This document shows positions 684 to 17,798 of a stretch of 24,306 nt of DNA, in pieces. The DNA is from a virus, in IMG/VR virus record IMGVR_UViG_3300037010_003335, positions 1 to 24,306 of that record; one strand, given 5' to 3'. The translations under genes and the position numbers were made by a program. The notes beneath the pieces were generated by a model that did not search any database, was not told the DNA's origin, and saw nothing but the letters and a program-made list of their open reading frames with translations. Every line of letters starts with the position of its first letter. Positions within the stretch are counted from its first letter, which is position 1.

Positions 684-691
684 TGTAAATA
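684..691 (+). promoter_or_regulatory. T4-late-like promoter TGTAAATA for gp13
   Basis: TGTAAATA has one mismatch to TATAAATA and ends 21 bases before the gp13 ATG. It is followed by CATGAGAGG, which contains the Shine-Dalgarno (GAGAGGA, 702-708). The same TAAATA...CATGAGAGG arrangement precedes the gene at 6924, which supports a shared late-transcription leader. Confidence 0.5.
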
Positions 692-712
692 TGACTGGCA
701 TGAGAGGATTAT

Positions 713-2491: not shown

Positions 2492-2515
2492 TTGATTAAA
2501 GCAATACATAGTTAC

Positions 2516-4093
2516 ATGATAACTATTGAGCTGCTTGAAGAGCGTCTATACGAACAGTCAAAGCATGGTCTTAGGCCTAGCTCTAGGAAGATTGCGGCTC
2601 GTGATAATCAAGCTCTCATCAGCGAGTTAGCAGCCGTTACAGCTTACTTGCCTCAAGACGCGTCCATCTTAGAGCGTATCTACTCTGTCAAACATGGGTT
2701 AACTTCTCGTCCATGCTGTCAAACCTGCGGCGGCCCGCTTCATAGCCGGGCTCTCTCAAGATTCAAAATTTCAGAAGGCTATACAAAGTTTTGCTCTCCT
2801 CGTTGCGTTAGAGGCAATCCTGCAGTGCAGGCTAAGCAGGTGGCCACCTGCTTAGCCAAGTACGGTGTCAGCTCTGTGCTTAGGGCTGAAGCCGTACGAG
2901 ATAAAATCAAGCAAACTAATTTAGAGCGCCATGGCGTTGAATCGACTTTACAAGCTACGCACGTAGCAGCGGCCAGGGCCGCTGGGTTGAAAGCCTATCA
3001 CAACGACGATAGGCGCATGCGTCTCGCCGCGCTAAAACGCATCGGGCAACGAGAATACCCCGACTACAAAGTTGAGCTCGACGAACAGCTTTTTCTATCA
3101 GACCTCACAATGAGGTTTACTCATAGCTGTGGTCGTGTGTTTGAAGCAAGGCTGTTAAATGGACAAGCGCCAAGATGTCCAAGCTGTGATCCGCAACGCT
3201 CAAACATCACAGCCCCGCACAAGTCTATTGTTAAGCTCTTAGAGCCTTACTGTGGCTTAGGGCTTGTTCAGAACAGCAGAAGCATGCTTAAGCCCTCTCG
3301 TAAGGAGCTTGACATCTATGTTCCAAGCGCTAGGCTGGGGATTGAGATAAACGGCTTGTACTGGCATTCATTCTTTGCTGAAGAACGTGCATTGATTCAG
3401 CTCACAAGAGACTACCATCTTGAAAAGACTCGGTTAGCTGAAGCTAACGAAATTCAGCTGATTCATATATGGGAGCACGAAGCAAATGATCCGCGGATGC
3501 ATGACATCCTCTTAAGCAAGCTTGGAGCGACTGTAAAGATCGGAGCTAGAAAGCTCGAAACAAGATTGATAAGCTATAAGCAAGCGCAGGAGTTCTTGCT
3601 TAAGAATCATCTGCAGGGCAGTGTGGTCAGCAGCTATCAAGTTGGGCTATTTAGAGCAGACGAGCTCTTAGCGGTAATGACGTTAGGGAAGCCCAGATTT
3701 AGCAAAGACGCGGACTGGGAACTCTTAAGGCTTTGCTCGAAGCTAGGGATCACAGTCGTAGGCGGAGCGAGCAAGATGCTCGCTAGATTTGTAAAAGACG
3801 TTGCTCCCAGCTCGATCTTAAGCTATGCAGAGCGAAGATTAAGCAGCGGCAACGTATACAAAGCCTTAGGTTTTGCTCTCATGAGACGGACCTCTCCAGG
3901 ATACTTTTATTGGAAGACAGACAATGGCTCTATCCGGATAGTATCAAGGTACATGGCTCAAAAGCACAAGCTCCCTAAGCTCTTGGGTGACAGCTTTAAC
4001 GTCGAGCTGACGGAGCAGCAAAACATGCTTAAGCAAGGCTACGGCCTCGTGTATGACTGTGGACAGCTAGTGTTTATCAAACAGTTTGGCTAA
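2516..4093 (+). CDS. HEG1: Vsr-like (Hef-type) free-standing homing endonuclease
   Basis: A 525 aa protein of the modular Hef/EDxHD type. An N-terminal zinc-finger-like Cys set (C68, C71, C93, C97) is followed by two 23-residue KYGV/RHGV helix repeats. A second Cys cluster (about 205-224, SCGRVF...CPSC) precedes a Vsr/PD-(D/E)xK-like nuclease core. Key residues there are E264/D266 in KELDIY, E277 in GIEINGLYWHS and H284, followed by QLIHIWEHE. The C-terminal domain (about 345-525) contains LRLCSKLGITVVGGASKML and GNVYKALGF, which look GNAT-like. The expected role is cutting HEG-free relatives near the 3' end of gp13, with copying of the gene by recombination. I prefer ATG 2516. TTG 2492, right after the gp13 stop, would add 8 residues. 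Base composition resembles the phage genes, unlike HEG2-4, suggesting older residence. Confidence 0.85.
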   Translation: MITIELLEERLYEQSKHGLRPSSRKIAARDNQALISELAAVTAYLPQDASILERIYSVKHGLTSRPCCQTCGGPLHSRALSRFKISEGYTKFCSPRCVRGNPAVQAKQVATCLAKYGVSSVLRAEAVRDKIKQTNLERHGVESTLQATHVAAARAAGLKAYHNDDRRMRLAALKRIGQREYPDYKVELDEQLFLSDLTMRFTHSCGRVFEARLLNGQAPRCPSCDPQRSNITAPHKSIVKLLEPYCGLGLVQNSRSMLKPSRKELDIYVPSARLGIEINGLYWHSFFAEERALIQLTRDYHLEKTRLAEANEIQLIHIWEHEANDPRMHDILLSKLGATVKIGARKLETRLISYKQAQEFLLKNHLQGSVVSSYQVGLFRADELLAVMTLGKPRFSKDADWELLRLCSKLGITVVGGASKMLARFVKDVAPSSILSYAERRLSSGNVYKALGFALMRRTSPGYFYWKTDNGSIRIVSRYMAQKHKLPKLLGDSFNVELTEQQNMLKQGYGLVYDCGQLVFIKQFG

Positions 4094-4102
4094 ATAAGCT
4101 CG

Positions 4103-4195
4103 ATGTACTACTATCTCCTAAACTCGTTACTGCTTGAAGGCGAAGTAGGTCAGAACGGCCCTGATAACTTCCACATGCCTTTCGTGATCGGTTAA
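4103..4195 (+). pseudogene. Displaced gp13 3'-end remnant (30-codon mini-ORF)
   Basis: Just after HEG1 an ATG opens a 30-codon frame beginning MYYYLLNSLLLEG. It runs in frame into EVGQNGPDNFHMPFVIG and a TAA stop, the exact gp13 C-terminus. The first 13 codons do not match the residues before this point in intact gp13. The simplest reading is the original gp13 tail, cut off when HEG1 brought in a recoded one. The mini-ORF could still be translated, and its LLLEG start resembles leaders of other genes here. There is no convincing ribosome binding site. Confidence 0.6.
4142..4195 (+). repeat. Direct repeat, copy 2: displaced gp13 3' end
   Basis: Encodes the same 17 residues and a stop as 2438-2491, using different synonymous codons at nine positions (for example GTA/GTT, GGT/GGG, ATC/ATA, TAA/TGA). 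It sits 3 bases before the next start codon at 4199, the place where the gp13 gene would have ended before HEG1 arrived. Confidence 0.9.
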
Positions 4196-4198
4196 GCT

Positions 4199-4495
4199 AT
4201 GCTGCTAAAACAATTGCTCGAAGCTACCAAGCAAAGCTTATTCAAAGTTCAGCAAGAGCTTGTTGACGCGCTGCCTAATAAGCTTAATGTCGAGCTCGTG
4301 CATGAGAAGTACTTTGACAGGTACTACCTGCGCGTTAGCAATGAAAGACAGTTAAGCATCCGCGTTGAGTGGCCTGGCGAGCAGATGAAGTTTACGATCA
4401 CGCGCGAGTATGAAACAGGCGATAGCCGATATCCCGAGATCCGCTCTATAAAAGAGCTGGTGATGATCCTAACCAATGAGCTTGAACATGGCTGA
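4199..4495 (+). CDS. Small unknown protein, paralogous to part of the 21816 gene product
   Basis: A 98 aa protein starting MLLKQLLEATKQ. Residues 6-34 (LLEATK, F-K-VQQELVDALP, NVEL) align closely with residues 157-184 of the 317 aa protein at 21816 (LLETSK, F-R-VQQELIENLP, DVQL). The two are therefore paralogous over at least this stretch. The rest has a beta-strand look (YYLRVSNERQLSIRVEWPG, MKFTITREYE). The start lies 3 bases after the displaced gp13 stop, and the 3' end overlaps the gp14-like gene, so it is translationally coupled. No catalytic motif is visible. The N-terminal LLE resembles the T4 prohead-protease site rule (L/I-x-E). No function is assigned. Confidence 0.72.
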   Translation: MLLKQLLEATKQSLFKVQQELVDALPNKLNVELVHEKYFDRYYLRVSNERQLSIRVEWPGEQMKFTITREYETGDSRYPEIRSIKELVMILTNELEHG

Positions 4496-6080
4496 TGAAC
4501 CGCTAGACTGTAACGCTCCGCCGAACCCACAGTTCGCTTACGATACGACACCTGACAAGTACGTGCCGTCACCGATCTGTGTCGGCACGGTTGACTACTC
4601 TACGTCCGAATGCGCCGATCACGAAGCAGAGTACATCGCCAGCTTGCAGGCTGAAGCTCTCGAGATGGCAGCTGGCCCTGTCAATATCTTTCCTATGCTC
4701 GGCGTACATAGCCAAGGTTCTACCGTTGACCTGATCAGCACTACAGGCTACCCGCTCTCATCAGGAGCCCCAAGCGGCTTTAACGCGCTTGACGCTTTCA
4801 ACATTAATGAAGAGTCATGGCGCTCTATTCAGCAGGGCAATGACGTAATTACAGCGCCTGCATACATCGGGTACTGCTTTGGCACTAAGAAGGCTTGGGA
4901 GAAGATCGGCGCGCCGCAAGAGCGGTATGTCAAGCCAGAGCCAGTACGAAAGCAGGTCGGCTCGATCAAGATCAAGCAGGGTTCGGTTGCTGAGAACCGC
5001 GTGACAAAGCTACGCATTGAAGTAAGCGATGATGGAGTCGCTTGGAAGCGTCTAGGAATCGTTTCCATCCCAGATACAGGGGATTTAGTTACCGTAGGGA
5101 TTCCATCGAATGCAATGTATAACCAGTGGCGTCTGGTACCCATCTTCTTCAACGGCATTGCGACAAACTCCCAATGGGAGGTTATTGAGCTGCATCTTGT
5201 TGAGGCTACCACAACGAGCATTGACAACATTCAAGACTTCTTCCTCAATGAAAACCGCGATAGGTCATACAGCCGACAGTCAGTGCTGCTTAAGTGCCAG
5301 TATGACTTGCTTGATGTACAGTCTGAACTAGCCAAGTTCGGTATTAGCTTGCCACAGACCTACATCTTCACGTGCAGCTACGCTATGATGATTCAGCGTT
5401 TAGGCAGGCCGATCCTCATCGGCGACGTGCTCGAACTGCCTGGTGAAGTACAGTATGATGCAATGCTCAACCCTGTGCGTAAGTGGCTTGAGGTTACTGA
5501 CACGGCTTGGGCGACCGAAGGTTATTCGTTCAACTGGAAGCCCCAGATGTTTAAGTTCTACGGTCAGCCGATCATGCCATCCGTAGAACATCGTGACTTG
5601 CTTGGCACGCCAGGCAAGGTAAATGACGCTATGGCTGATGATGACTTCTTAAAGGGCGTGCTGCAAAATGACGCAGCTTATAAGTCAACTGAAGCTATCA
5701 TGCAGCAGAGCAAGGATGACGTGCCGCAAACAGGTGGTGACCCCCAGAACATTCGCTCAGGCAAAGCTATGGGTCAGCCACCAGGTACTTATGACGGTCG
5801 TGACCCATACGTGCAGGACGCTATTCCACCTGACGGCGCGTCGTTCACAATGGGTGATCAGCTGCCTGCTGCTAACACGATCGCTGCTGGGCACTATCAT
5901 CGACAGACCTACACAAACGCGCCTATTTCGCTTCGACCTGCTGACAGGCTGCTAAAGTGGAACGGTACGCGTTGGAACGTGATCGAAGTTAACACGCGTG
6001 TAACTTACGAGTCGCATAAGCGTAGCGTTTCTCGAATTCTAAGCTCAGCAAACAAGGTCAACTTGGATGCTAAACCATGA
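4488..6080 (+). CDS. gp14: gp14-like neck protein with inserted discoidin-like domain
   Basis: A 530 aa protein. Residues about 48-75 (EYIASLQAEALEMAAGPVNI, then FPML) correspond to the T4 gp14 segment [23 protein letters not shown]. Residues about 270-358 (SELAKFGISL, then RPILIGDVLELP, the WATEGYSFNW region and FKFYGQP) correspond to its C-terminal core with KEGDLIYFP and the QLGQNAIRKIT part. Between them (about 95-240) is an insertion that looks like an F5/8C/discoidin jelly roll: NINEESWRS, APAYIGYCFG, LRIEVSDDGVAWKRLG and NQWRLVPIF. T4 gp14 is about half this length. Its position directly after gp13 matches T4 and supports the call. Start: ATG 4488 has GAG at a usable distance; ATG 4476 would add 4 residues. 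The end overlaps the next gene as ATGA. Confidence 0.68.
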   Translation: MADEPLDCNAPPNPQFAYDTTPDKYVPSPICVGTVDYSTSECADHEAEYIASLQAEALEMAAGPVNIFPMLGVHSQGSTVDLISTTGYPLSSGAPSGFNALDAFNINEESWRSIQQGNDVITAPAYIGYCFGTKKAWEKIGAPQERYVKPEPVRKQVGSIKIKQGSVAENRVTKLRIEVSDDGVAWKRLGIVSIPDTGDLVTVGIPSNAMYNQWRLVPIFFNGIATNSQWEVIELHLVEATTTSIDNIQDFFLNENRDRSYSRQSVLLKCQYDLLDVQSELAKFGISLPQTYIFTCSYAMMIQRLGRPILIGDVLELPGEVQYDAMLNPVRKWLEVTDTAWATEGYSFNWKPQMFKFYGQPIMPSVEHRDLLGTPGKVNDAMADDDFLKGVLQNDAAYKSTEAIMQQSKDDVPQTGGDPQNIRSGKAMGQPPGTYDGRDPYVQDAIPPDGASFTMGDQLPAANTIAAGHYHRQTYTNAPISLRPADRLLKWNGTRWNVIEVNTRVTYESHKRSVSRILSSANKVNLDAKP

Positions 6081-6892
6081 AACTTGCTGAAGGCTTGATT
6101 AAGCTCCCTCCCAGGCTTCTTAGCCAAATGACCGAGTTTGTGCTGACGTGGTACTTTGCGCATGTATCTGCTACAATTGACAAGCGCTTTCGCTTTGATG
6201 AAGACTCGTTAGACCGTGCGCATCACTTGCTTAGCGCTGCTATGGCTGAGCATCATGTAGCAGTACCGCAAGCTAAGGTGCGCATCGCACGAGAAAAGAA
6301 GGTTTTCATGAAAACCTTCGAGCTCAATCATGAAAGCGTGTATGACACGCAGCTTGCGCTGAACGTAAAGCTTAAGCTGGTATTTGAACGACATCGAGGC
6401 TTAGCTACAAACCTTGGCGTGTACCGTGACAACACAGCATTCATCATCCTGTCGCCGTATAACCTACACATGACTGGCGCGTCATTAGCTACAGTTGCAT
6501 CTCTTAAAGCTTCGCTTCAAAAGGTACCTGAGCTTTTGGGCTTTCTTGAGCACGAGTTAACTCACTTAATCCAGCATCGGTTTTTCAATCATGCTGATCA
6601 GCTCAAAGGTAATTATAGCCAGACGGATGAGTTCGATGATGCCTACGGCCTTGCCCCTGTAGAGTTCGACCCACTTATCAAGAGCTCGCGAGCAACGTTA
6701 AGACGATTAGAGCAAAAGTATAAAGGCTATCCTGAGTTCAACCGGACAGAGATGATTAATGCGTACCTATCTGCCGGCCCAAAGCCTAGGTGGATGCATG
6801 ATAGCGATGTCTGTCAATTCTTTGAGGTGTTGAAGCGTCGCGCACCGGTTCGATGGAAGAAGGCCGTTAAACTCTTTATGCATGCTTATTGA
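6077..6892 (+). CDS. Putative zinc metallopeptidase-like protein (HExxH)
   Basis: A 271 aa protein starting MKLAEGLIKLPPRLL. Residues 158-167 read EHELTHLIQH, giving the zincin signature H159-E-L-T-H163. A following acidic region (QTDEFDDAYGLAPVEFDP) could supply a third ligand, but I cannot identify it. Upstream, residues 118-150 (DNTAFIILSPYNL) suggest the strand that precedes the active-site helix in zincins. The start codon overlaps the gp14-like stop (ATGA), so it is coupled to the neck genes. No signal peptide or transmembrane segment is seen, so it would act inside the cell or in the virion. Possible roles are virion protein processing or action on host proteins after injection. Activity is inferred from the motif only. 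Confidence 0.65.
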   Translation: MKLAEGLIKLPPRLLSQMTEFVLTWYFAHVSATIDKRFRFDEDSLDRAHHLLSAAMAEHHVAVPQAKVRIAREKKVFMKTFELNHESVYDTQLALNVKLKLVFERHRGLATNLGVYRDNTAFIILSPYNLHMTGASLATVASLKASLQKVPELLGFLEHELTHLIQHRFFNHADQLKGNYSQTDEFDDAYGLAPVEFDPLIKSSRATLRRLEQKYKGYPEFNRTEMINAYLSAGPKPRWMHDSDVCQFFEVLKRRAPVRWKKAVKLFMHAY

Positions 6893-6895
6893 TTG

Positions 6896-6903
6896 CATAA
6901 ATA
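6896..6903 (+). promoter_or_regulatory. T4-late-like promoter CATAAATA for the MoxR/VWA operon
   Basis: CATAAATA is one base from TATAAATA and lies in the short gap after the metallopeptidase-like gene, ending 20 bases before the ATG at 6924. CATGAGAGG follows, carrying the Shine-Dalgarno at 6912-6917, the same layout as at gp13. Confidence 0.5.
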
Positions 6904-6923
6904 CCAAACATGAGAGGTCATAC

Positions 6924-7190
6924 ATGAAAGTCAATAACGTCATGGGTTCAAAGCCCATCAATGATACGCTACGCCGCTTAGTTGACGCGGTTGTTGAAGG
7001 GCGATCAGCTGCACCAGCACGCGAGATCAATAAGAAGATCGTTGAAGCCGCACCTGCTATCGAGCAGTCGGAACCCGATGAGGTCGAGCACAAGCTGCTG
7101 TTCCAGCCTAGTGAAAGCTTCAAGCATATTTTAAGCTTGATCGCCAAAAGCGATAAAAAGTTGTATAATCGTATTATTGGGTTGGAGTAA
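6924..7190 (+). CDS. Small unknown protein, first gene of MoxR/VWA operon
   Basis: An 88 aa hydrophilic protein of no recognised family. The start at ATG 6924 is chosen because GAGAGG lies 7 bases upstream and a late-promoter-like element precedes it; an earlier in-frame start at 6882 would overlap the previous gene and lacks such signals. The N-terminal half is basic and helical (DTLRRLVDAVVEGRS), the middle is acidic (EQSEPDEVEH), and the end (FKHILSLIAKSDKKLYNRI) looks amphipathic helical. Only 3 bases separate it from the AAA+ ATPase gene, so it is probably co-translated and may be a partner or adaptor of that ATPase. That role is inferred from position only. Confidence 0.7.
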   Translation: MKVNNVMGSKPINDTLRRLVDAVVEGRSAAPAREINKKIVEAAPAIEQSEPDEVEHKLLFQPSESFKHILSLIAKSDKKLYNRIIGLE

Positions 7191-7193
7191 TTA

Positions 7194-9881
7194 ATGGCCG
7201 ATTCAGATAAAAAATTCTCCGTCTCATCGACTGCTCCTGCTCAGCGTTTGAAGTTCATAGACTCGATCATTGCCGACATGAAGGGCAAGATGCATCGACA
7301 TGTGCTCGGTGGTATGCTGCTTGCAGGTGACCCTGGTGTTGGCAAGACCTCATTTGTGCGTCAGCTCTCTCGCCTCTTAGGTATGACGCTTGTGTTGATT
7401 GAAACTCCGCACTTGGTCGAAGAGCACATCATCAACATCCCGTTCATCGTATACCATCCAGAGTCTGACGCGTCGAAGTCCGGCGTAGTTAAATCTAAGG
7501 GTGATGATTTTGACATCGAGCTAGCTGACTCTGACCTATACAACCAGGTCATGAAGTCTAAGAAGCTGCCTGACTCAGAGGTGCTTGCTAAGATCAAGTC
7601 GGATGCAAACCTCTTCGCGCTTCATCAAAAGCTTGGCGGCACAGAAACAGCCTTTTCAAAGCGTGTTCAGCAGCTCCGTGAAAACTTTAACTGTATCTTA
7701 TTCCTAGATGAGTACTATCGCGAAACTTCGACCTCAATTCGGAACATGCTTCGTGGCATCTTGAACAGGAACTTGGGCTTACATGAGCTCCCTGACAAGG
7801 TCTATTGCATCTATGCTTCGAACATGAATGATGAGGGCATCGAAGAAGTTGCCCTGAATCAGGACTACAGAAAGCTCACATTTAACAACCCAGGTAAGCA
7901 AGAGTGGTTTACATGGTTCGTGAATAAGTTCCAGCATGAGAAGCATGTTAAGCTTGACATGCGTGTCATTGACAAGTTCTTTAACGCGCTTGAAGAAAAT
8001 GACCTGTCGTCTGATGACGCAGAAGCTGACGTGCGTACGTCACCTCGGCGTTGGGAGCAGCTTTTACTGCTCATTAATGCATCGCTGCCTGTTAAGAGCG
8101 AAAAGGAAGCACATGTGCTCATGAGCCAAGTGCACCTGAACTTTGAAAACTATGAAACAGGCGCAAAGGCTAAGCTCGTAGAAAAGGTTTCAGCCGCTGT
8201 AGCTGAGCTCATTAAAGAGACGTCGCATATCACGATCGGCCCAAATGACACTCATCCTATTGAGCACTGGCGCGACGTGCTTAAGCATCAGCTCGAAGTT
8301 AAGATGAAGCTTAACGAGTCACGGTCTTACGTGCCTGTGATCTCTGGATTGCCTGGCATCGGTAAGTCTAGCCACATTCAATCTGTTGCTTGGGAGCTAG
8401 GTCTTGTCCCGGTTATGATTGAAACTGATAAGCTGACTGCAGAGGACGTGATTGGCTTACCGGTTCCTGGCGGAAAGAGCGCCACCGGCAACAGGACGAT
8501 TAAGTTCTCTGAGGCTATGCTCTATAAAGTGATCATGAACAAGATCAAAGAGGGCGAGAAGATCCTTAAAGAGCATCTTAAGACGTTCCACTTAGGTTCA
8601 ACTCATGGCTCTGGCGAGCTTCGGTCGCAAGATGCTGATCCTGAAGTCGATTGGAAGGAATTTCAGTCTCGCGAGCATAAGTACTTAATCTTCTTCGACG
8701 AGCTGAACCGTGTGCCGGTCAAGACGTTCAACGCGCTTCGTCGGATTCTGCTTGACAAGACATTTGTCGGCGAACCCGGGCATGAAGGCACGTTAGAGCT
8801 GCCTAAAGGCTCCATCATTGTTGCCGCTATTAACCCAAGCGATGGTGCGTCAACGACATCGATGACTAAGCACATGCGTGACGTGCTGGACATCATTCCT
8901 ACTGGTTCGAGCTGGAACCAGACTGTAACATTCTTAAAGACTAAGCTCGAGCCAGAAGTTAAGAAAGAGCTTGAAAATCCTGAGATTGCTAAGCCGATTC
9001 TTGAAATCCTCCTTGCATTTCATCAGCATTACAGCGATGATGAAAATAAAGGCAAGCATGGCGGCACCGAAACCGAGTTCCACATGCTTACGGGTTCAAA
9101 GGGCATTTACATCTCACCTCGAGAGTTCTCTGACCTTTATACCTCAATGTGCAATGAGGTGGATATAAAGATTGAGCGGTTCAAAGAGGACGCTATCAAA
9201 GAGGAAGATCCAGCTGAAGTCGAGAAGATGGCGTTTGAAGTGAAAAGCGACTTGTATGATGTTGTTCACTCTAAGCTTAGCTTCATCATTGAAAACAAGC
9301 ACAAGGTTGAAAATCCTGAGTTCTTCGAAGAGCTGAAATCATGGTTCCTGTACTCAGAGGAGGCTGACAAGCTTGACTTGGTAGCAAAGAAGGCTAAGAC
9401 GTTGTCATTTGAAGAGATCTTCAAGAAGGTCTATGACGATGAGAACATGCTGTTGGCTGACAATGGTGAGTTCATCAACTACATCCAAAACGGCGATCCA
9501 GCGATGTTTAAGCGTGACCTCACGCACTTCTTGATCACCCGTTCAACGAACAACAAAGCCTTCTACCTTGATGAAGTTCGGTTCTTGCGCGAGCTTCAAG
9601 CGGATGGTACCACCATTAAGAATGGAACTGACAAGAAGACTAACAAGTCAAAGGTCACCCACTTCGAGCACTTCATAAGAGAGATCTTAAATGCGATCTT
9701 CATGCATGGTCTTTCGAAAGAGTATATCCTGCCGTTAAAGCAAAGCATTAACGAGCTGTTAGGGTCGCCTGACTTACCTGATGAATCATTGAAGGATCTA
9801 GGCGCCATTAACTCGCGCTTGTCAAAGTACATCACAGAAATTAGCAATCAAGCTAAAGCTCGGGAAGAGAAGAAGAAATGA
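7194..9881 (+). CDS. MoxR-type AAA+ ATPase with two ATPase modules
   Basis: An 895 aa protein with two AAA+ cores in one chain. Module 1: Walker A GDPGVGKT (45-52), Walker B ILFLDE (168-173) and a sensor-1-like ASNMND. Module 2: Walker A GLPGIGKS (385-392), Walker B LIFFDE (about 498-503) and sensor-1 IIVAAINPSD, the form typical of MoxR/RavA/CbbQ. The C-terminal third is helical and ends in a basic tail (KAREEKKK). Family members usually have one AAA+ module and work as hexamers with a VWA-domain partner to remodel other proteins or load cofactors. The next gene encodes such a VWA protein and overlaps by ATGA, which strongly supports a working pair. GGAG at 7184-7187 supports the start. The target, perhaps a virion complex, is unknown. 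Confidence 0.85.
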   Translation: MADSDKKFSVSSTAPAQRLKFIDSIIADMKGKMHRHVLGGMLLAGDPGVGKTSFVRQLSRLLGMTLVLIETPHLVEEHIINIPFIVYHPESDASKSGVVKSKGDDFDIELADSDLYNQVMKSKKLPDSEVLAKIKSDANLFALHQKLGGTETAFSKRVQQLRENFNCILFLDEYYRETSTSIRNMLRGILNRNLGLHELPDKVYCIYASNMNDEGIEEVALNQDYRKLTFNNPGKQEWFTWFVNKFQHEKHVKLDMRVIDKFFNALEENDLSSDDAEADVRTSPRRWEQLLLLINASLPVKSEKEAHVLMSQVHLNFENYETGAKAKLVEKVSAAVAELIKETSHITIGPNDTHPIEHWRDVLKHQLEVKMKLNESRSYVPVISGLPGIGKSSHIQSVAWELGLVPVMIETDKLTAEDVIGLPVPGGKSATGNRTIKFSEAMLYKVIMNKIKEGEKILKEHLKTFHLGSTHGSGELRSQDADPEVDWKEFQSREHKYLIFFDELNRVPVKTFNALRRILLDKTFVGEPGHEGTLELPKGSIIVAAINPSDGASTTSMTKHMRDVLDIIPTGSSWNQTVTFLKTKLEPEVKKELENPEIAKPILEILLAFHQHYSDDENKGKHGGTETEFHMLTGSKGIYISPREFSDLYTSMCNEVDIKIERFKEDAIKEEDPAEVEKMAFEVKSDLYDVVHSKLSFIIENKHKVENPEFFEELKSWFLYSEEADKLDLVAKKAKTLSFEEIFKKVYDDENMLLADNGEFINYIQNGDPAMFKRDLTHFLITRSTNNKAFYLDEVRFLRELQADGTTIKNGTDKKTNKSKVTHFEHFIREILNAIFMHGLSKEYILPLKQSINELLGSPDLPDESLKDLGAINSRLSKYITEISNQAKAREEKKK

Positions 9882-12160
9882 CAAAGCCTCCCTGCGTAGA
9901 GTGTGCCGTTGACGAAGGCAGGGACTTTGACACCCTGCGCCGTTTGCTCGAGGGTGAGAATGCTGACGGCTCGTTTACATCTAACTTATCTGTGACTGAG
10001 CGAAAGCTGCTCAAAACAACGTTTAGCGATCCGCACGTCAAGGCTATCATGGATCACGCGATGAGCGGTGATCAGAAGAAGATTGACCACTTCAAGGATG
10101 AAGTAACCGAGGCGCTGCAAAAGCTTGAATGTGTAGCAAAGGTCTCTCCGATCTTGTATGAAGCTGCGGTTGATAACATTATCGAGACGAAGCTGTTTGA
10201 CAAGTATTGGAAGCGACCCGAAACGGCAGCTGAACTGATCGCTAAGCAGCTTGGCGTTACGCTAGATCATCCAGACCATGTTAAGCGTGCGCCTGACGTA
10301 ACGACGGCTCCAAAGTTTAACTTGTTGACTTGGAATAAGCTGCTGCAAAAGATTAGGACTGAGTCAAGAACATTCTTTCCACTTCGAAACATGATGGACT
10401 ATCATGTGATTCATCGACCGTCATTTAAGATCATCGGTGATGGGCTCAATGAAAGAGACGAGAAGCGGTTTAAAGGCATTGATACAGCTTGTGCTACCGC
10501 TGATGGGACCTTTGTCTTCAACGTCAAGTTTTGCCAAGCGCTGCTCGATTTCGGCCACTTGAAGGGAATCAAAGCAGGTTCTGGTAAGTTTGGCAAGAAG
10601 TATAAGTCGCAAGGCGGTGACATTCCTGATGAGTGGGAGTACATCGAGTTCTTGATTCGTCACGAGCTAATGCACTTCACCTACTCTGACTTCCACTATC
10701 AAAAGATCATCAAGGAGTCAACACCTACGCTGATCAACTGGGTAGGTGACTTTCGCTCAAATCACCGTTTGATTCAGCAAGGCTTCAATCAGCTTCCCAT
10801 GGGGCTGTTCTCAGCATATGTAAACTTTCACAGGCAAGGCTCTTACCAAGAGATGTTTAACCTTGTCAAAGCTGAGTTTGCTAAGATCAAAGATCAGTGC
10901 AAGGAAGAGCTTGAAAAGGCGATGAAGAGCGCCGATGACCACTCGCAAGGCGGTAGCACTACTGAAGGTGGCGAAGGTGAAGAGGGTGGAGAGGGTGGAG
11001 AAGGAGCACCAGGAGAAGGAACTTCTGGTAAGGGCAAGCCGGGTAATGGTAAGGGCGGAAAAGCGTCAACCCAAGATAACGGCGAAGAAGGTGAAGGAAA
11101 GCCTGGTGAAGGCGAAGGGAAAGATAAGGGCGAAGGGAAAGATAAGGGCGAAGGGAAAGATAAGGGCGAAGGTGAAGGTAAGTCAGGCGAGGATAAGGGC
11201 GGCAAAGATAAGGGCGACAATGATAGCGATGATCCTGGCGTAAGCAAGGAAGGCGACCGTGGCGAAAGGGGTAAGGGTGGCCACGGTAAGACCAATGAAA
11301 GAAATCTAACGCCTGAAGACATCGATAGCTGGAACAAGAAGCAGCATGAGCGCATGGAGAAGGAAGATCGTCAAGCGACCGACGAGACTACTAATCCTGA
11401 CTATGACGCCAAGCCTAGCGGCGGTGGCCCTGGAACTGCTAAGGGCGGTCATCATAAAATTGACTATAGCAAGATTACGCCTCGCTATAAGTGGGACGCG
11501 CTGTTAAAGAAGATGGTCAGCGAAACAGCATACACTGTTGAATCATCGTACCAGAAGATTAGTCGTCGCGCTATTAGCTCTGTTCATCAAGCTGTTACTC
11601 GGGGCGCCGGCGCTGTTAAGCCGGGTGATGTCAAGAATCCGAATAAGCGGAAGATCAAGCTTGCAGTGATCGTTGACTCGTCTGGTTCGATGTCGTATGT
11701 CATCCACACCGTGATGGCTAACCTTGACGCGCTGCTTGTTAAGCGGCAAGGCGTCACAGGCGTGCAAGACGAGTTCTTCCTCTTTATGTTCAGCGGCGAC
11801 TATGACATTTTTACCTGCACAGCAGGTAAGAGCGGTATGGCAACGCACGTTAAGGACGTTGAAGGCACGCCAGGGCCGTTAGGTAAGATCAAACTGTCTG
11901 AGGTGCTAAATCACCACAAGGCAGGCGGCACGATCTTTAGCTCAGACCTTGCTAATCAGGCTAAGAAGCTGGCTGCAAAGGGCTATAACGTACTGGTTGT
12001 GTCAGACGGTGACTTGCTTGCTACTGAGAACTTTGACACGTTCAAGGACCTTTACTACAGCCATCGAAAGAATGTTTGGCTGCTGTTGAATGACAAGCGT
12101 ACATTCGAGCAATTTTGCTCGAGGATGAAAGAAATTACAAACAACGCGTCGCACCTATGA
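9878..12160 (+). CDS. VWA-domain protein with metallopeptidase-like N-terminal domain, MoxR partner
   Basis: A 760 aa protein resembling the DUF2201-type arrangement of a metallopeptidase-like domain followed by a VWA-like domain. The N-terminal part carries H262-E-L-M-H266 in LIRHELMHFTYSDFH. Residues about 350-500 are a highly charged G/E/K/D linker with 6-residue GEGKDK repeats. The C-terminal VWA domain has a complete MIDAS start, D600-S-S602-G-S604 (VIVDSSGSM), with KAGGTIFSSD and VVSDGD supplying likely further metal-site residues. In cellular MoxR/VWA pairs the VWA protein binds the ATPase and the substrate. The ATGA overlap with the ATPase upstream means coupled translation. The HExxH could be an active protease or a structural zinc site; the sequence does not decide. 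Confidence 0.82.
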   Translation: MTKPPCVECAVDEGRDFDTLRRLLEGENADGSFTSNLSVTERKLLKTTFSDPHVKAIMDHAMSGDQKKIDHFKDEVTEALQKLECVAKVSPILYEAAVDNIIETKLFDKYWKRPETAAELIAKQLGVTLDHPDHVKRAPDVTTAPKFNLLTWNKLLQKIRTESRTFFPLRNMMDYHVIHRPSFKIIGDGLNERDEKRFKGIDTACATADGTFVFNVKFCQALLDFGHLKGIKAGSGKFGKKYKSQGGDIPDEWEYIEFLIRHELMHFTYSDFHYQKIIKESTPTLINWVGDFRSNHRLIQQGFNQLPMGLFSAYVNFHRQGSYQEMFNLVKAEFAKIKDQCKEELEKAMKSADDHSQGGSTTEGGEGEEGGEGGEGAPGEGTSGKGKPGNGKGGKASTQDNGEEGEGKPGEGEGKDKGEGKDKGEGKDKGEGEGKSGEDKGGKDKGDNDSDDPGVSKEGDRGERGKGGHGKTNERNLTPEDIDSWNKKQHERMEKEDRQATDETTNPDYDAKPSGGGPGTAKGGHHKIDYSKITPRYKWDALLKKMVSETAYTVESSYQKISRRAISSVHQAVTRGAGAVKPGDVKNPNKRKIKLAVIVDSSGSMSYVIHTVMANLDALLVKRQGVTGVQDEFFLFMFSGDYDIFTCTAGKSGMATHVKDVEGTPGPLGKIKLSEVLNHHKAGGTIFSSDLANQAKKLAAKGYNVLVVSDGDLLATENFDTFKDLYYSHRKNVWLLLNDKRTFEQFCSRMKEITNNASHL
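11111..11182 (+). repeat. 18-bp tandem repeats encoding the GEGKDK linker
   Basis: The unit GGCGAAGGGAAAGATAAG occurs three times perfectly (11111-11164) and once in a degenerate form (11165-11182). It adds 6 residues per unit to the charged linker of the VWA protein. Perfect identity suggests recent expansion, so copy number may vary between relatives. Confidence 0.9.
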
Positions 12161-12330
12161 AGCTTCAAGCTCTCACTGAAGGCAGCAGCGTTAGCAAGGG
12201 GTTCCTAAGGAAGATTTTCTTGCCGTGCAAGACCGTGTTTTCACCGCGGCAATTGTCAAGTTCGAAAGCTTCCTTTGAGGCTGCGATGAAGGTTCACTTT
12301 CCTGACTTCAAGCTCGACCGATGCTTTTAG
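12157..12330 (+). CDS. Small unknown protein, probably truncated by a frameshift
   Basis: The ATG overlaps the VWA gene stop (ATGA), so this is the fourth gene of the operon. It reads 57 aa, starting MKLQALTEGSSVSKGF, a leader of the MKLxxLxE form seen in other accessory genes. The frame ends at TAG 12328 just after KLDRCF. If one base is skipped after the GAC at 12316-12318 (KLD), the next frame continues for 36 more codons as DAFRGALQYEGSDPLDLLKL and onward to TAA 12430. That would give a 90 aa protein with a natural-looking helical C-terminus. A mutation, a sequencing error or a programmed +1 shift could explain this. Function unknown. Confidence 0.6.
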   Translation: MKLQALTEGSSVSKGFLRKIFLPCKTVFSPRQLSSSKASFEAAMKVHFPDFKLDRCF

Positions 12331-12430
12331 AGGCGCTCTCCAATATGAAGGGAGCGATCCTCTCGATCTGCTTAAACTAAGGTTTGATAACTTTGTAAAC
12401 ACCCTCATGACTGCGAAGAAGCATGCTTAA
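12320..12430 (+). pseudogene. Out-of-frame 3' part of the 12157 gene
   Basis: Open for 36 codons in the +1 frame relative to the upstream gene, ending at TAA 12428-12430. It has no start of its own and reads like protein (LQYEGSDPLDLLKLRFDNF). The last 26 bases overlap the antisense 3' end of HEG2. It is most simply the displaced C-terminus of the 57 aa product. Confidence 0.5.
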
Positions 12431-13961
12431 TAAAAGTCAATGAGCCGGCGTCGTAAAGCTTTAAAAACCCATTTGATAACATATTTGTAGTTTCAGATAC
12501 AGATTCATCAAATGCCACTAATAGCTGTTTCAGCTTGTGTTTTTGGCACTGGTATCGAGAAAGCATTCCGTATTTGTGTTTATAATAGCTATAACTTGGC
12601 ACATCTGTTGTGAGCTGGGTAAATCCTAGTTTTCTATATGCTGCCCCTGAGCTCCACCTTCTGTTTGCATAAGATACCATTGGCTTATCTGTTTGTAATG
12701 CGCGCAAGAGCTTAGACATCCCACCCACAACTGTGATATTTTGTGCTGAAGCCATTCGTAAAAGCTCATCATAACCTACTCTAAACCTAGCTGGCCCAAC
12801 GGTCATTAGCTGAACAAGCTCATCCCCGTTATAAAGCCCGAGACGTTTTGAGCATGCTACATATCCTTGCATGTGGTTTTTTTCAAGAAATGATCGTGCA
12901 TCTTGCACAGATACATCCCTCAATAAAAGCTTTCTAGCATAAAGTCTTGTTGTCAAGTTAAGCTTTGACATACACATGCTTATTATAAGCTCTGGTTGTT
13001 TTAACACTTCTATGTCATAAAATGACATGAGCTGTATTTTTACACTCTCGGCTAAATCATGCTTCTTTGCTAAATGATGTTTATCTGGATTTACATCTGT
13101 TGAATGCCAATAGACACCGTTTACCTCAATAGCAAGCACAGGTAAACCATGCTTATGAATAACAATGTCTAGCTCCTTCCCGCCGAGAAGTTTCCTATTA
13201 TTCTGCTGAATACTATATTCAGCAGGTAGCTGAGATATAAGAAGCTCAACGAGTCGCTGTTGAGGTAGGCTTCTAGGTGCACATCGTGGGCATTTAGGAA
13301 GTTTACCGCTTTCTAATGTCGACATGAAATTGAAGCCACAGCTATGCTTCCAGTTATATTGAAGTAATGATCCTTGATAAGTGTTTGGGTCAAAGTTAGG
13401 AACGATTCCATGATCGAGTATGATCGGAAGCCTGGCTGTTAAAAAGTTAGTAAGCGCAAGTTGTTGATTTGAATGCTTAGAGCCACTTTGCTTCATAACA
13501 GCGCTTCGGCCACCTAAGCTTTTAAAAGCGGCATTTGCTGCCATCCTAACACGCCCTAATTGAAGAGGCGTACTAACGCCGTAGCGCTCAAGATTTGTAG
13601 CTTTTTGAGAAGCCAGCTGATCAGCTGTCCATATTCGTTTAGGCTGTTGTTTGCTATGGGTTGCTCTAGCTAATGGATTTGCATAAAATGTTTTAACACG
13701 AAGGCTTTGCGCCTCTTTTATACAGCTTTTAGCTGTGCATGTCGATGAGTATCCTGTTTTGAAATTATAAAATTTTGGAGATGAGCTGCAAAACATGCAA
13801 GTAGGCTTAATCGAGTTAAGTTTAAGCTCGATGAACAACGCCTCTGGTATTGACGTGTTATACTTATCAGTAAGATCTTTTACAAGCACTTTGTAGCGTT
13901 TACAGCGTTCAGCTGAGACCCGGCCTGTATCTGTGAGTAAGCATGAATAAATAGATGTCAT
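12405..13961 (-). CDS. HEG2: Vsr-like (Hef-type) free-standing homing endonuclease
   Basis: A 518 aa protein of the same family as the other three HEGs in the window. Order: N-terminal Cys cluster (CMFCSSSP...YSSTC), a single RYGV helix-type repeat, the HSCGFNF...CPRC zinc-ribbon-like part, then a Vsr-like nuclease core with KELDIVIHKH and LAIEVNGVYWHS, then the GNAT-like C-terminal domain (RMASAQNITVVGGMSKLLRA, GAAYRKLGF). It lies antisense between the operon end and gp15, with its ATG only 17 bases from the gp15 ATG. It is visibly more A+T-rich than its neighbours, suggesting recent acquisition. Its presumed target is a sequence near the gp15 start. The 3' end overlaps the out-of-frame tail of the 12157 gene by 26 bases. 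Confidence 0.83.
   Translation of the reverse strand: MTSIYSCLLTDTGRVSAERCKRYKVLVKDLTDKYNTSIPEALFIELKLNSIKPTCMFCSSSPKFYNFKTGYSSTCTAKSCIKEAQSLRVKTFYANPLARATHSKQQPKRIWTADQLASQKATNLERYGVSTPLQLGRVRMAANAAFKSLGGRSAVMKQSGSKHSNQQLALTNFLTARLPIILDHGIVPNFDPNTYQGSLLQYNWKHSCGFNFMSTLESGKLPKCPRCAPRSLPQQRLVELLISQLPAEYSIQQNNRKLLGGKELDIVIHKHGLPVLAIEVNGVYWHSTDVNPDKHHLAKKHDLAESVKIQLMSFYDIEVLKQPELIISMCMSKLNLTTRLYARKLLLRDVSVQDARSFLEKNHMQGYVACSKRLGLYNGDELVQLMTVGPARFRVGYDELLRMASAQNITVVGGMSKLLRALQTDKPMVSYANRRWSSGAAYRKLGFTQLTTDVPSYSYYKHKYGMLSRYQCQKHKLKQLLVAFDESVSETTNMLSNGFLKLYDAGSLTFIKHASSQS
13946..13953 (+). promoter_or_regulatory. T4-late-like promoter AATAAATA for gp15
   Basis: AATAAATA, one mismatch to TATAAATA, ends 25 bases before the gp15 ATG and is followed 5 bases later by CATG. 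It lies inside the first codons of HEG2 on the other strand. HEG3 has a similar antisense segment (ATAAATAGA) just upstream of its start. Confidence 0.42.
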
Positions 13962-13978
13962 GCGGTATTTACCTTCTT

Positions 13979-14848
13979 ATGCTTAAGCAGTACTATTATA
14001 ATCAACAATTGAAGAAAGCGACAATAGTCTTTGCGAACATCTTTGCGAACTTGAAGGTTCGCACAGGTAAGAATGCTTGCGGGGACATTGAAGAGCTAAC
14101 CGTTCCCATCCGTTACGGTTCGGCTGACCGCGTAGCTGCAGCAATTGCAGCAGGTAACACGCAAAACAAGCTCCACACGTTGCCGATCATGTCATGTTAC
14201 ATGACAGGCATCGAGCTTGCCCCTGAACGTAAGCATGGCCATGGTACGTTTGACCGTAAGTCCTACCTCGAGCAGGGTGGCACGTTTCCTGATGATGTCA
14301 AGTTTATCAAACGGTTGATGCCCACGCCGTACAACTTGACATATGAGCTCTCGATCTACGCTTCGAACACAGATCAAGCGTATCAGATCATCGAGCAGAT
14401 CATGATCGTCTTTGACTATGACATGCAGGTGCAGTTCAATGACTCACCATTTGACTGGGCGAAGATCACGCGCGTCACATTAGAGTCCATCGGCAATGAA
14501 GAGAACTATCCTGCAGGTACTGATCGGCGCATCATCGTCTGGAACCTAAGCTTCATGTTCGAGACGTGGATCTCACCGCCTGCTGAAGTCAAGCAAGGCC
14601 TGATCAACAACATTGTGCTCAACTTCGCTAACATGGATGATCCTGAGAAGGGTTGCAAGATCTTTGAAGTGGGTGAGGATGGTGAGCTAGCGCCGTTTGA
14701 TCCAGAGCAAGAAATCGGGCAGGTTGTAATTGCAGGTGAGGCCGGCGAGCTTGATCCGCCCGATGACGTGCCTGAGTGCGACTTACCAGAACGGTACAAC
14801 CCGAGCCTCGATCCTGAGTGCCACCAACAGCCTCCCGCTAAGCCATGA
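13979..14848 (+). CDS. gp15: gp15-like tail completion / proximal sheath stabiliser
   Basis: A 289 aa protein clearly related to T4 gp15, which caps the tail tube and sheath and joins the tail to the neck. YYYNQQLKKATIVFANIFAN matches T4 FYNSSFRRYATLMGDLFSNI. ELTVPIRYGSADRVAAAI matches FIRVPITYASKEHFMMKL. PTPYNLTYELSIYASNTDQA, YQIIEQIMIVF and NLSFMFETWISPP match T4 IKMIYELSIFTRYEDDMFQI, EQILPYF and SLTFEVNGWMYPP. I chose ATG 13979, where homology begins; ATG 13955 would add 8 residues overlapping HEG2. The C-terminus extends beyond T4 with an acidic, proline-rich tail (about 225-289). The stop is followed within 25 bases by the peptidase-like gene. Confidence 0.9.
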   Translation: MLKQYYYNQQLKKATIVFANIFANLKVRTGKNACGDIEELTVPIRYGSADRVAAAIAAGNTQNKLHTLPIMSCYMTGIELAPERKHGHGTFDRKSYLEQGGTFPDDVKFIKRLMPTPYNLTYELSIYASNTDQAYQIIEQIMIVFDYDMQVQFNDSPFDWAKITRVTLESIGNEENYPAGTDRRIIVWNLSFMFETWISPPAEVKQGLINNIVLNFANMDDPEKGCKIFEVGEDGELAPFDPEQEIGQVVIAGEAGELDPPDDVPECDLPERYNPSLDPECHQQPPAKP

Positions 14849-14872: not shown

Positions 14873-15613
14873 ATGAAGCTTAAACATCTACTTGAAGAAA
14901 TTCAGCATCACGTCAACCGCGATGACCTCATCGCCATTCTTGATGTGTTTGGGAAAGAGCTTACACTTGTTTACAAGCACTGCTTTGTCAAAGCGCTGTG
15001 CGAGGCCTTAGACCTTCACGGCTTTGAGGTAAATGAGTCAGAGCTCTTTCATGAAATTGTTATGATGCATGGTGATGAAACTAGCGACGACGGCAAATTT
15101 ATTCATCCTGATCATGCCAAGAGCACGTTAGCCGCAAGGTACGCCATCGATGTTAAGTTTAAGCATTTGCATTCAACCGAAGATATCAAAGCTGCTCTTC
15201 GGAAAAAACTACCTGTTATCGTATCTATCGTGTGGTATGACCCATATTATTTAGTAGCCCGTGAGCTTCGTGATGGGCAGAAGGATAAGCCTAATACATT
15301 TTACAGGTATCGTCGGATGGGTGCGACTAATGAAATGGTGAAGAAGGCCATTAACGGCATTGTACCTTATCCATCCGAAAAGCTTATTAAGAGCACGCAA
15401 CGAGGTGAAGATCTCAAACATGCTATCCTCTGTGTAGGCTATGACGCAGGCGATGATGCTTTTATCGTGCGCGACTATATGAACAGCAATGCGCACTTTG
15501 ACGGGTTCTTCAAGATCGAGTCAAAGCTCTTCTTCGACAAACGGCTCGAGCAAGAAGGAATCTCTGTAGTTGAAGCTGCTATCTCAGTTGCCGCAACGGC
15601 AGGAGCTCGTTGA
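14873..15613 (+). CDS. Papain/C39-like cysteine peptidase fold protein (putative)
   Basis: A 246 aa protein starting MKLKHLLEEIQHHVNR. The segment HAILCVGYD (H183) followed by FIVRDYMNSN and a GFFKIE strand is the His-strand-Asn/Asp layout of papain-like C1/C39 families. C37 in KHCFVKALCEAL would be the candidate nucleophile on the first helix; C43 is an alternative. Residues 105-120 (ALRKKLPVIVSIVWYDPYYL) fit the central strand where C39-like proteins read P-V-I-V. GGAAAAAAG precedes the ATG by 2 bases, somewhat close. The N-terminal LLE leader matches other accessory genes, so it may be packaged into the head. Fold assignment is tentative and activity unproven. Confidence 0.6.
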   Translation: MKLKHLLEEIQHHVNRDDLIAILDVFGKELTLVYKHCFVKALCEALDLHGFEVNESELFHEIVMMHGDETSDDGKFIHPDHAKSTLAARYAIDVKFKHLHSTEDIKAALRKKLPVIVSIVWYDPYYLVARELRDGQKDKPNTFYRYRRMGATNEMVKKAINGIVPYPSEKLIKSTQRGEDLKHAILCVGYDAGDDAFIVRDYMNSNAHFDGFFKIESKLFFDKRLEQEGISVVEAAISVAATAGAR

Positions 15614-15621: not shown

Positions 15622-17721
15622 TTATGCTCTTGCTTCGTGAGTTAATTCGTAAACATAGTTTCCGCAATCAAAAAGTCTATACCAACCGTTCTTATTCATG
15701 TTTTGAACTTCTGTGAGAAATGGGTCGAATTTATCACCCAATAGCTTAGGGAGTAAATGTTTTTGTGCTTGATAGCGCGTGATAATGTTTCCGCCTTTGA
15801 CATACCAATAATTGGGTTGGCTTTTATGCAAGCGTTTAAATCCCAATGACTCATAAAGCTTGCCTGTGCTATAACGTGCATCGGCATATGTTATTAGTGA
15901 ACCGGCATGTTGTGATCGAAAGCTTTTAAGCAATTTAGCCGCACCGCCTTGAACGGATGTCATGAGCTTTGTAGAAAATCGTATTAATTCCCAATCATAG
16001 CGCTTATCAAATCTAGGCTTCCCGAATGACATGCAAGACAGCAATTCATCATTCGACCAAAGCCCGAGAGCTATTCTTGCATTTGCGTCGCCTTGAAGAT
16101 GATTTTCTTTAAAGAATGTAAAACGCTCTTTTGCTGAAACGGGTCGTATTGATAATGATCTTGCTCCATGCTTAACATTAATAGCTTTAAGCTTATAAGC
16201 CAACATGCTATAGCAAATTTCAGGTTTAAGTTCAAGCTCATGCTCAAATAGCTGGATCAAGTTGATTCCCGACGAGTAAGCTTTAAGATGCTTCATTTCA
16301 TGATAATTGTCATCTTTGAAATCTGAGCTATGATAGTAATCTCCGTGAACTTCAACTCCGAGGTTATTAGCAGGAATTAAAATGTCAATTTCAAATGGCT
16401 TTATTGCTGTTCTATCATTAATGAGCATATCATGCGAGCTAAGCTCTTTAATCCAACCTTCTACCTTCCCTTGAAGCAAGCTATTACGGCACTTTGGACA
16501 TCCTCTATATCGGTAACGTCCTAAGACAGAGTAGATAGTCCCGCAGATATCATGTTTAAGCTGATATTCTTCATTGTTGATATATGAATTGATAGCTGAA
16601 TCTTCACCATCAGGTAAGCTATAACCGCGTGCTAAAAGCGATGCTAACCTTGCTGCAAACTTGACAGCGTTTCGTTTTAGATTTTTAAGAGTAACAGTTT
16701 TAGAGATTTTTGCTTTGACTTCTAGGCATGATGCAGGCGCCCCATTGTACAGTTTTTGCAATGCGTTTTTTGCAAGCATCTGACATGCAGGTGTGGCTAA
16801 GTATGATATTGCCCCGTGCCGTTCTAAATTTGTTTGTTTAAATTTGTCTAATAGCTCAATGCTTTGAAGAGCATGCTTTACACCATAACGCGTTATCATT
16901 GTAGCACGAACCTTGTCTTTTACAAGATCAGCTTGCCAGACATTATTGACGCCATAGCGTTCTTGCACAGTATTAAGCAGCTTAAGCTTAATTTCCGCAG
17001 AATGCATAGGATGCTCAACACCGAGCGAAGCAAATATAGACTCTTTGCTTTTTTGAATAACATCCGAACGTTGAAAATTGTTTTCTATACCATATGTACT
17101 GAGCAAGCTAAGCTTGCTTAATTGATAAATTGCTTTATTGAATTCGGGTCCAAACTTAGCCTCTTTTGAGGCTAAAGCTTTAAGCTTGAATTTATCATGT
17201 TGGGCTACGTTGTCAACACCGTAACGTTCTAATGTAGTTTGTCGTGTCTTAGCAATAATAGTTTTTGTGATAGCATGCTCTATGCCGTATTTGTTTAGAC
17301 ATGTAGCTTTTCGCTTAGCTGTAATCACGGCTTCGCTGATTTCCGAACGGGCTTGCTTAATTTTTGCTATTGTATCGGGTAACATGAATGCATTTTCTAC
17401 CCCGTGCTTTTTAAGCATTCCTTGTTTAATTGCAGCCGCGTGGGCTGCACCCCCTGTCCCTTTTGTGCCGCACGTAGAGCTACAAAAATTAGAATAGCCT
17501 AGCTTAACAGATTTAAAAGCTGTTGGTTTGTTACATAGCAAACAAGCACCTTTAGGATTAGCTAAAAGATACCCATATTCTAACGGTCTTAGACCATTTA
17601 ATTCAATACCCTCTTGTGCAAAGAGCTTTTTAAGTTGAAGAGCGCAGCTCGTTTCATTTCGTGTTCCAGCTTTGACCTCTTTAATGAGCTGCAAAGCTAA
17701 TAGCTCTGTTTGGTGATTCAT
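15622..17721 (-). CDS. HEG3: Vsr-like homing endonuclease with expanded repeats
   Basis: A 699 aa protein, longer than its three relatives because of about eight 22-23-residue helix repeats, each opening with a K/R/T-Y/H-G-V/I motif (KHGVENAF, KYGIEHAI, RYGVDNVA, TYGIENNF, SLGVEHPM, RYGVNNVW, RYGVKHAL, RHGAISYL). These sit between an N-terminal Cys cluster (CLLCNKP...FCSSTC) and a zinc-ribbon-like HDICGTIY...CPKC. The nuclease core is PFEIDILIPANNLGVEVHGD followed by YYHSS and LIQLFEHE. The GNAT-like end has TSVQGGAAKLLKSF and GKLYESLGF. The start is ATG 17721; TTG 17754 would add 11 residues. The gene is A+T-rich, antisense, and ends 8 bases from the peptidase-like gene. It sits directly upstream of the gp19 tail tube gene, its likely homing locus. 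Confidence 0.83.
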   Translation of the reverse strand: MNHQTELLALQLIKEVKAGTRNETSCALQLKKLFAQEGIELNGLRPLEYGYLLANPKGACLLCNKPTAFKSVKLGYSNFCSSTCGTKGTGGAAHAAAIKQGMLKKHGVENAFMLPDTIAKIKQARSEISEAVITAKRKATCLNKYGIEHAITKTIIAKTRQTTLERYGVDNVAQHDKFKLKALASKEAKFGPEFNKAIYQLSKLSLLSTYGIENNFQRSDVIQKSKESIFASLGVEHPMHSAEIKLKLLNTVQERYGVNNVWQADLVKDKVRATMITRYGVKHALQSIELLDKFKQTNLERHGAISYLATPACQMLAKNALQKLYNGAPASCLEVKAKISKTVTLKNLKRNAVKFAARLASLLARGYSLPDGEDSAINSYINNEEYQLKHDICGTIYSVLGRYRYRGCPKCRNSLLQGKVEGWIKELSSHDMLINDRTAIKPFEIDILIPANNLGVEVHGDYYHSSDFKDDNYHEMKHLKAYSSGINLIQLFEHELELKPEICYSMLAYKLKAINVKHGARSLSIRPVSAKERFTFFKENHLQGDANARIALGLWSNDELLSCMSFGKPRFDKRYDWELIRFSTKLMTSVQGGAAKLLKSFRSQHAGSLITYADARYSTGKLYESLGFKRLHKSQPNYWYVKGGNIITRYQAQKHLLPKLLGDKFDPFLTEVQNMNKNGWYRLFDCGNYVYELTHEARA

Positions 17722-17732
17722 TGATGTTTTGA

Positions 17733-17740
17733 TATAAATA
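17733..17740 (+). promoter_or_regulatory. Late promoter TATAAATA for gp19
   Basis: A perfect match to the T4 late octamer, 57 bases before the gp19 ATG. It lies between the divergent HEG3 and gp19 starts. This is the best late-promoter match on the + strand in the window, consistent with strong expression of the abundant tube protein. Confidence 0.6.
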
Positions 17741-17754
17741 GAGTCAACGGACAA

Positions 17755-17790: not shown

Positions 17791-17798
17791 TATTTATA
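17791..17798 (-). promoter_or_regulatory. Late promoter TATAAATA reading toward HEG3
   Basis: Read on the - strand this is a perfect TATAAATA, 69 bases upstream of the HEG3 ATG, overlapping the first base of gp19. With 17733-17740 it forms a pair of face-to-face late promoters in the same gap. It could arise by chance from the A+T-rich ribosome-binding region of gp19. Confidence 0.4.

Follow-up and report, generated by a model that had tools for sequence, protein, structure and literature searches.

The locus described here raises the question of what a MoxR-type AAA+ ATPase and a metallopeptidase-VWA (von Willebrand factor A) protein, encoded one behind the other among structural genes, do for a phage. 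It lies in the virus record IMGVR_UViG_3300037010_003335, a 24.3-kb fragment of an uncultured T4-superfamily phage that was analysed over its whole length of 24,306 nucleotides (nt) and is called the window below. With moderate confidence, we regard the product of this operon as a virion-associated machine for remodelling that large T4-superfamily phages make late in infection. The operon is located between the positions of gp14 and gp15, where a late-type promoter element is followed by a small gene, the ATPase gene, the metallopeptidase-VWA gene and an open reading frame (ORF) of 57 amino acids (aa). ORFs were confirmed at 6882-7190, 7194-9881 (895 aa), 9878-12160 (760 aa) and 12115-12330. 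For the small gene, 6924 is the most likely start, since the late element falls within the ORF opened at 6882, and the last small ORF is better taken as 12157-12330 than as 12115-12330, the operon ending near 12330. Contig L003 matches positions 1-11480 of the window at 99.9% identity, so that the arrangement is not an assembly error. The features of the operon, including the metal ion-dependent adhesion site (MIDAS) of the VWA domain, are as follows.

6896..6903, + strand: CATAAATA, late-promoter -10-like element, 28 nt 5' of the ATG at 6924
6924..7190, + strand: small protein, 88 aa, with conserved C-terminal tail (..KSDKKLYNRIIGLE); ORF open from 6882
7194..9881, + strand: tandem-module MoxR-type AAA+ ATPase, 895 aa
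7326..7349, + strand: Walker A of module 1, GDPGVGKT, residues 45-52
8346..8369, + strand: Walker A of module 2, GLPGIGKS, residues 385-392; intein insertion site in two relatives
9878..12160, + strand: HExxH metallopeptidase (DUF2201_N-like) and VWA protein, 760 aa; its start overlaps the MoxR stop (ATGA)
10661..10675, + strand: HELMH zinc-binding motif, residues 262-266
11675..11689, + strand: MIDAS DSSGS motif, residues 600-604
11930-11932 and 12005-12007: MIDAS Thr685 and Asp710, respectively
12157..12330, + strand: 57-aa ORF on the VWA stop codon, N-terminus MKLQALTE/GSS leader-like; not conserved

The original prediction had described the ATPase as a double-module MoxR protein and its partner as a metallopeptidase/VWA protein with intact HExxH and MIDAS, and both descriptions hold across the homologues. 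In the ATPase, Pfam recognizes two AAA modules (AAA, 4e-12; AAA_5, 7e-11, in two stretches), with a match to AAA_3 as well. Module 1 covers approximately residues 1-335 and module 2 residues 340-660, followed by a helical C-terminal domain. In an alignment of 25 homologues that are 26-62% identical to the window protein, both active sites are invariant, namely the Walker A lysines K51 and K391, the Walker B DE pairs 172-173 and 502-503, the sensor-1 residues N210/N547, R187/R516 and the sensor-2 residues R285/R643. The arginine finger, Walker A and B, and sensors 1 and 2 of the MoxR AAA+ class are thus all present in both modules. In a tree of the modules, the two modules form separate clades and the single-module references sit on long branches.

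The predicted structure of the ATPase (mean predicted local distance difference test score, pLDDT, 85; predicted template modelling score 0.74) was compared with known folds. Residues 13-730 of the model align with AAA2-AAA3 of dynein (Z 14.6, 514 residues, 5.2 A) and with Mdn1 (Z 12.7, 464 residues, 4.6 A), and module 1 aligns with NorQ (Z 12.2, 237 residues) in a MoxR-type fold arrangement. The alignment of both modules with dynein and Mdn1 fits a single ring in which the two modules are neighbours, as opposed to a stacked arrangement; sequence identity to midasin and dynein is just about 12-16%.

In two relatives, an intein-like insertion interrupts module 2 at its Walker A loop. That of L060 (10007-13651) is in-frame (GK/AQPLYS...THN/TS), and in L059 (9641-13563) the gene consists of two ORFs, with a very short N-part (GK/CLRGNQEI..) and a C-part ending in HHN/TA; the latter insert is a candidate for an atypically split intein. 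In L034 (14631-15167), the C-terminal domain of the ATPase recurs as a free-standing protein of 178 aa (33% identity, E about 1e-15), encoded directly 3' of the VWA gene.

The partner protein consists of a metallopeptidase domain on the N-terminal side, a disordered charged and glycine-containing linker and a C-terminal VWA domain. Pfam assigns DUF2201_N (PF13203, 3e-9, above cut-off) and, weakly, VWA_CoxE. Among 19 homologues, H262, E263, H266, N287 and D291 (HExxH and a downstream NxxxD) are invariant, as are the MIDAS residues D600, S602, S604 and T685; D710 is conserved in at least 90%. As judged from the alignments, this invariance of catalytic residues in the ATPase and VWA families is far beyond chance. 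In the structural model (pLDDT 70; residues 1-40 and 348-475 of low confidence), the best Foldseek matches are NorD in NorQD complexes and the midasin MIDAS, and VIA-align returned many VWA domains at Z 9-11, NorD included. A tblastn search with the HExxH region of the VWA protein alone gave unrelated mycobacteriophage matches only. Profile matches of the gene pair are phrog_1297 (1e-25) and phrog_1314 (2e-14). PHROG 1314 is named 'HNH endonuclease', yet the members examined are metallopeptidase-VWA proteins; we reject this label as misleading, because the matched region is metallopeptidase-VWA.

The cellular MoxR-VWA pairs NorQ-NorD, CbbQ-CbbO and RavA-ViaA carry a single AAA module in each chain and are not known to contain an HExxH protease domain. 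The phage pair shares with them the combination of a MoxR ring ATPase with a VWA/MIDAS partner, NorQ resembling module 1 and the NorD VWA domain the C-terminal domain, but it differs from one-module-per-chain MoxR ATPases in its two AAA modules per chain. At the sequence level, no match to the solved members of these three pairs was found. The predicted structure shares with midasin (Rea1/Mdn1) and dynein the joining of neighbouring AAA modules in a single chain, which holds six modules in these proteins as compared to two in the phage ATPase. The MIDAS domain of midasin sits behind a disordered charged linker. In the phages, however, the MIDAS is on a separate protein, and midasin has no protease domain. 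The unit resembles the machinery by which ribosome-assembly intermediates are taken apart and metals are inserted into enzymes. In the mechanism that we infer, three ATPase chains would form one closed six-module ring, on which the MIDAS domain would dock and hold either the small protein or a substrate. Pulling would be driven by ATP hydrolysis, and the metallopeptidase domain may cut or release.

The general logic of an AAA ATPase with a VWA partner is also that of the cobaltochelatase CobST, and viral cobST for host cobalamin synthesis has been proposed for single-module phage pairs (PMC8651126). We consider this function very improbable here and reject a CobST identity, since neither protein matched a CobS or CobT family in Pfam or NCBIfam (E 0.1); the intact metallopeptidase site, the two AAA modules and the late element and small tail protein described below speak against it as well.

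A profile of the ATPase detected 32 viral loci with matches across both modules. In the 29 loci that were ORF-called (the window and 28 further viral loci), the VWA gene lies directly 3' of the tandem ATPase gene on the same strand in 27. Close relatives of the tandem ATPase or the VWA partner were not found in a collection of cultured phages, which gave single-module fragments only, and a scan of GTDB genomes for the tandem ATPase returned only short AAA/P-loop fragments among the matches listed.

The unit had been proposed to include two small proteins, of which the first is conserved beside the MoxR-VWA pair and the second is not. In 23 loci, a small ORF of 60-130 aa precedes the ATPase gene, directly in all of them except L049, where another gene lies between the two; the distance from its stop codon to the MoxR start is usually 0-40 nt. 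The sequence of the small protein is variable save for a tail of approximately (N)PxLYxKIxxxD/E-end, whose distance from the C-terminus is constant in 23 loci; the last residues of the window protein are KSDKKLYNRIIGLE. This constancy relative to a free end suggests that the tail serves for docking on either the ATPase or the VWA protein. Two single-module pairs that were checked have no such small gene upstream. The second small protein, encoded by the 57-aa ORF (orf71) of the window, was rejected as a conserved partner: no homologue was found, and its match to an L034 protein at the same place is at chance level (E 1.2).

Late expression from a late-type promoter, as originally predicted, is supported by a conserved sequence element. 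In 17 of 24 loci, the window included, NATAAATA precedes the small gene at a distance of 25-53 nt, with 0.62 expected; two of the 17 (L052 and L063) are near-identical. The window element, CATAAATA at 6896, is unremarkable alone, and it is conserved at the same position across the family. Directly before the ATPase and VWA genes, NATAAATA is rare (3/28 and 2/28, respectively). In the 360-kb contig G001, 37 ORFs have NATAAATA 20-60 nt upstream as compared to 2.6 for a shifted sequence, and the genes so marked include gp13, gp18, gp20, gp21 and tail-fibre genes.

In two genomes, the single-module pair has a promoter of a different kind, with the sigma70-like sequences TTTACT-17-TATAAT in G001 and TTGACT-16-TATAAT in G008. 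In these two genomes, the single-module paralogues thus look early and the tandem operon late, as far as promoter sequences can tell. Since G001, G006 and G008 carry both the single-module and the tandem pair, the tandem kind is a distinct paralogue. A single-module pair, ASV44729.1/ASV44728.2 of phage Atu_ph07 (PHROG 1297/1314), was discussed in a survey of jumbo phages, where a role in assembly was proposed (PMC7824862). Like the tandem pair, it consists of an AAA ATPase gene followed on the same strand by a metallopeptidase-VWA gene, the partner having a MIDAS and DUF2201_N. In contrast, its ATPase has one AAA module (417 aa) with a VWA partner of 429 aa, it sits among genes for DNA polymerase I, RNA ligase and glutaredoxin, and it has no small tail protein. 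The location of these relatives among replication and metabolism genes and their sigma70-like promoters in G001 and G008, together with phage ClpS-like and ClpA genes directly 3' of the VWA gene in L063 (15077-17703), would fit an early host-takeover or counter-defence machine or a superinfection factor with no link to the virion. We consider such a role improbable for the tandem pairs, which carry the late element instead. The PADLOC defence models gave nothing beyond short P-loop matches, for which reason a defence-system reading was rejected.

Whether the machine could enter the virion was approached through the N-termini of its proteins. In T4, the gp21 protease cuts after L/I-x-E, and N-terminal propeptides of 10-19 residues send proteins to the head (PMC9026906); the N-termini of T4 ipII and ipIII read MKTYQEFIAEA. 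An L/I-x-E motif near the N-terminus (E at residues 5-26) is present in 21 of 26 VWA proteins (6.1 in shuffled sequences, maximum 13) and in 13 of 28 ATPases (4.0, maximum 11), counts that were drawn from homologous proteins and are not independent, so that the tests overstate independence. The motif is followed by alanine at 11 of the 21 VWA leader sites as compared to 4% at internal sites (p 3e-7), and at 6 of the 13 ATPase leader sites as compared to 7% internally. An example is the ATPase of L054, whose N-terminus MSIYTSLLTE/A (the slash marks the presumptive cut) resembles MKTYQEFIAE/A of IPIII. The likeness to the T4 internal head proteins IPI, IPII, IPIII and Alt lies in this short leader ending in L/I-x-E, which most VWA proteins and about half of the ATPases in the family carry; the mature parts have no sequence relation. 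Around the tandem operons, 42 ORFs in 19 families have leader-like N-termini (3.5 expected), as in MITFKQFLTEE of L048, and another such N-terminus is MTTFKEFLAES in G001. Multi-copy leucine-rich-like proteins with head-targeting-type leaders (family F2; 40 members in 14 loci, among them L048, L045, L039, L041 and L049) cluster around the operon and are possible packaged cargo or substrates.

Together with the late promoter, the T4-like leaders on many family members suggest that the machine is relevant to virion assembly or is a virion-borne device, as had been proposed at the outset. By way of a T4-type propeptide, the VWA protein of many family members and the ATPase of up to about half of them may enter the prohead core, where the gp21 protease would then remove the propeptide. 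Packaging into the head specifically remains a tentative reading of these leader sequences, to which we give somewhat better than one chance in three.

The genomic position of the unit gives a more complex picture. Its neighbours in the window, all of them outside the unit, are the following.

713-2491: gp13
4476-6080: structural protein at the gp14 position
6077..6892, + strand: HExxH protein (zincin), neck-cluster core gene
12405..13961, - strand: homing endonuclease gene between operon and gp15 (phrog_3339, 4e-82)
13955-14848: gp15
17798-18391: tail-tube protein

With gp15 as bait, seven related contigs (L005-L011) were obtained. L005 and L006 have the order gp13, gp14, zincin, small gene, ATPase (62%), VWA protein (51-61%), an extra ORF, gp15, C39 peptidase and tail tube; homing endonucleases are absent from these junctions, that of operon and gp15 included. 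In L007, L008, L009 and L011, gp14 and the zincin are followed directly by gp15, and in L010 the zincin lies directly 5' of gp15; none of the five has MoxR-VWA genes there. Thus, the protein at 6077, which had been suspected to belong to the unit and which we reject as a member, is a core gene of the neck cluster, and the unit occupies this place in one lineage only. The 360-kb contig of L011 (G001) also carries a tandem ATPase gene and a VWA gene, at a distance of about 150 kb from the neck genes. The unit therefore belongs to these phages without a fixed place, and the placement between gp14 and gp15, to which the original prediction had given weight, is no family trait; a conserved neck position is rejected.

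Two further observations concern the window cluster. Four free-standing homing-endonuclease genes of one family (phrog_3339) break it up at 2492-4093, 12405-13961, 15622-17754 and 18487-20100; none was detected in L005-L011. Just 3' of gp15 lies a C39-like peptidase gene (14873-15613) with the leader MKLKHLLE, which is kept in L005 and was not detected in L007-L011.

T4-like structural or packaging genes, which favour a virion-associated role, are found within about 10 kb of the tandem pair in roughly 12 of the 29 loci, and in the window, L034, L035, L039 and L045 the pair has a gp13-gp15 neighbourhood. The latter neighbourhood is consistent with the main rival explanation, an assembly chaperone that stays in the cell and strips or cleaves prohead, neck or tail assembly factors as midasin does with pre-ribosomes. 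The late element and the midasin-like fold matches fit such a chaperone too, as does the published proposal for the single-module pair, which was made by analogy with the tail-forming pair of the Acidianus two-tailed virus (PMC7824862). That pair, cited there as reported to be necessary for tail formation, is a viral MoxR-VWA pair too, but as described it has no peptidase domain and comes from an unrelated archaeal virus. The L/I-x-E/A leaders on many members, which suggest head targeting, and the lack of a conserved neck position argue against a pure chaperone, and we put its likelihood at not quite one in three.

Several findings weigh against a late, virion-associated machine. The leader statistics are not independent and the L/I-x-E motif could be a conserved helix; moreover, the window ATPase has no leader and that of the window VWA protein is weak, with LLE coming late, at residue 25, and followed by glycine. 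Of the 24 loci, 7 gave no late element, the closest relative, L034, being one of them. Two fragments, L040 and L047, contain the small gene and tandem ATPase, yet a VWA partner is absent from the whole of their 81 and 113 kb, respectively. Finally, the position varies, some copies being located by tail fibres, ClpS/ClpA or unknown genes. We nevertheless maintain that the tandem operon probably encodes a late, virion-associated machine that uses ATP for remodelling and proteolysis, acting most likely in head or neck maturation or packaged with the DNA. In its most explicit form, a midasin-like two-module motor with a MIDAS-metallopeptidase would be built late, be directed into the head by its leaders, lose these to the prohead protease and be injected along with the DNA, so that it could take apart or cleave a host complex as soon as the next infection begins. 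This complete sequence of events is rather doubtful, having perhaps one chance in five.

Pairs of MoxR and VWA proteins have been described before, and so has a phage version, with a hypothesis on assembly. As far as could be found, no description exists of the tandem architecture, of the small tail protein, of the late promoter or of the leaders of head-targeting type. To our knowledge, AAA rings of concatenated modules that lie side by side have been found mainly in dynein and midasin. An ATPase of two modules paired with a MIDAS protein, so far found in phages only, would be a simple model for the origin of such rings and for the coupling of a MIDAS grip to them. Furthermore, a late remodelling protease, possibly borne in the head, would be a new type of component, either in the assembly of T4-type virions or among the proteins that phages inject.

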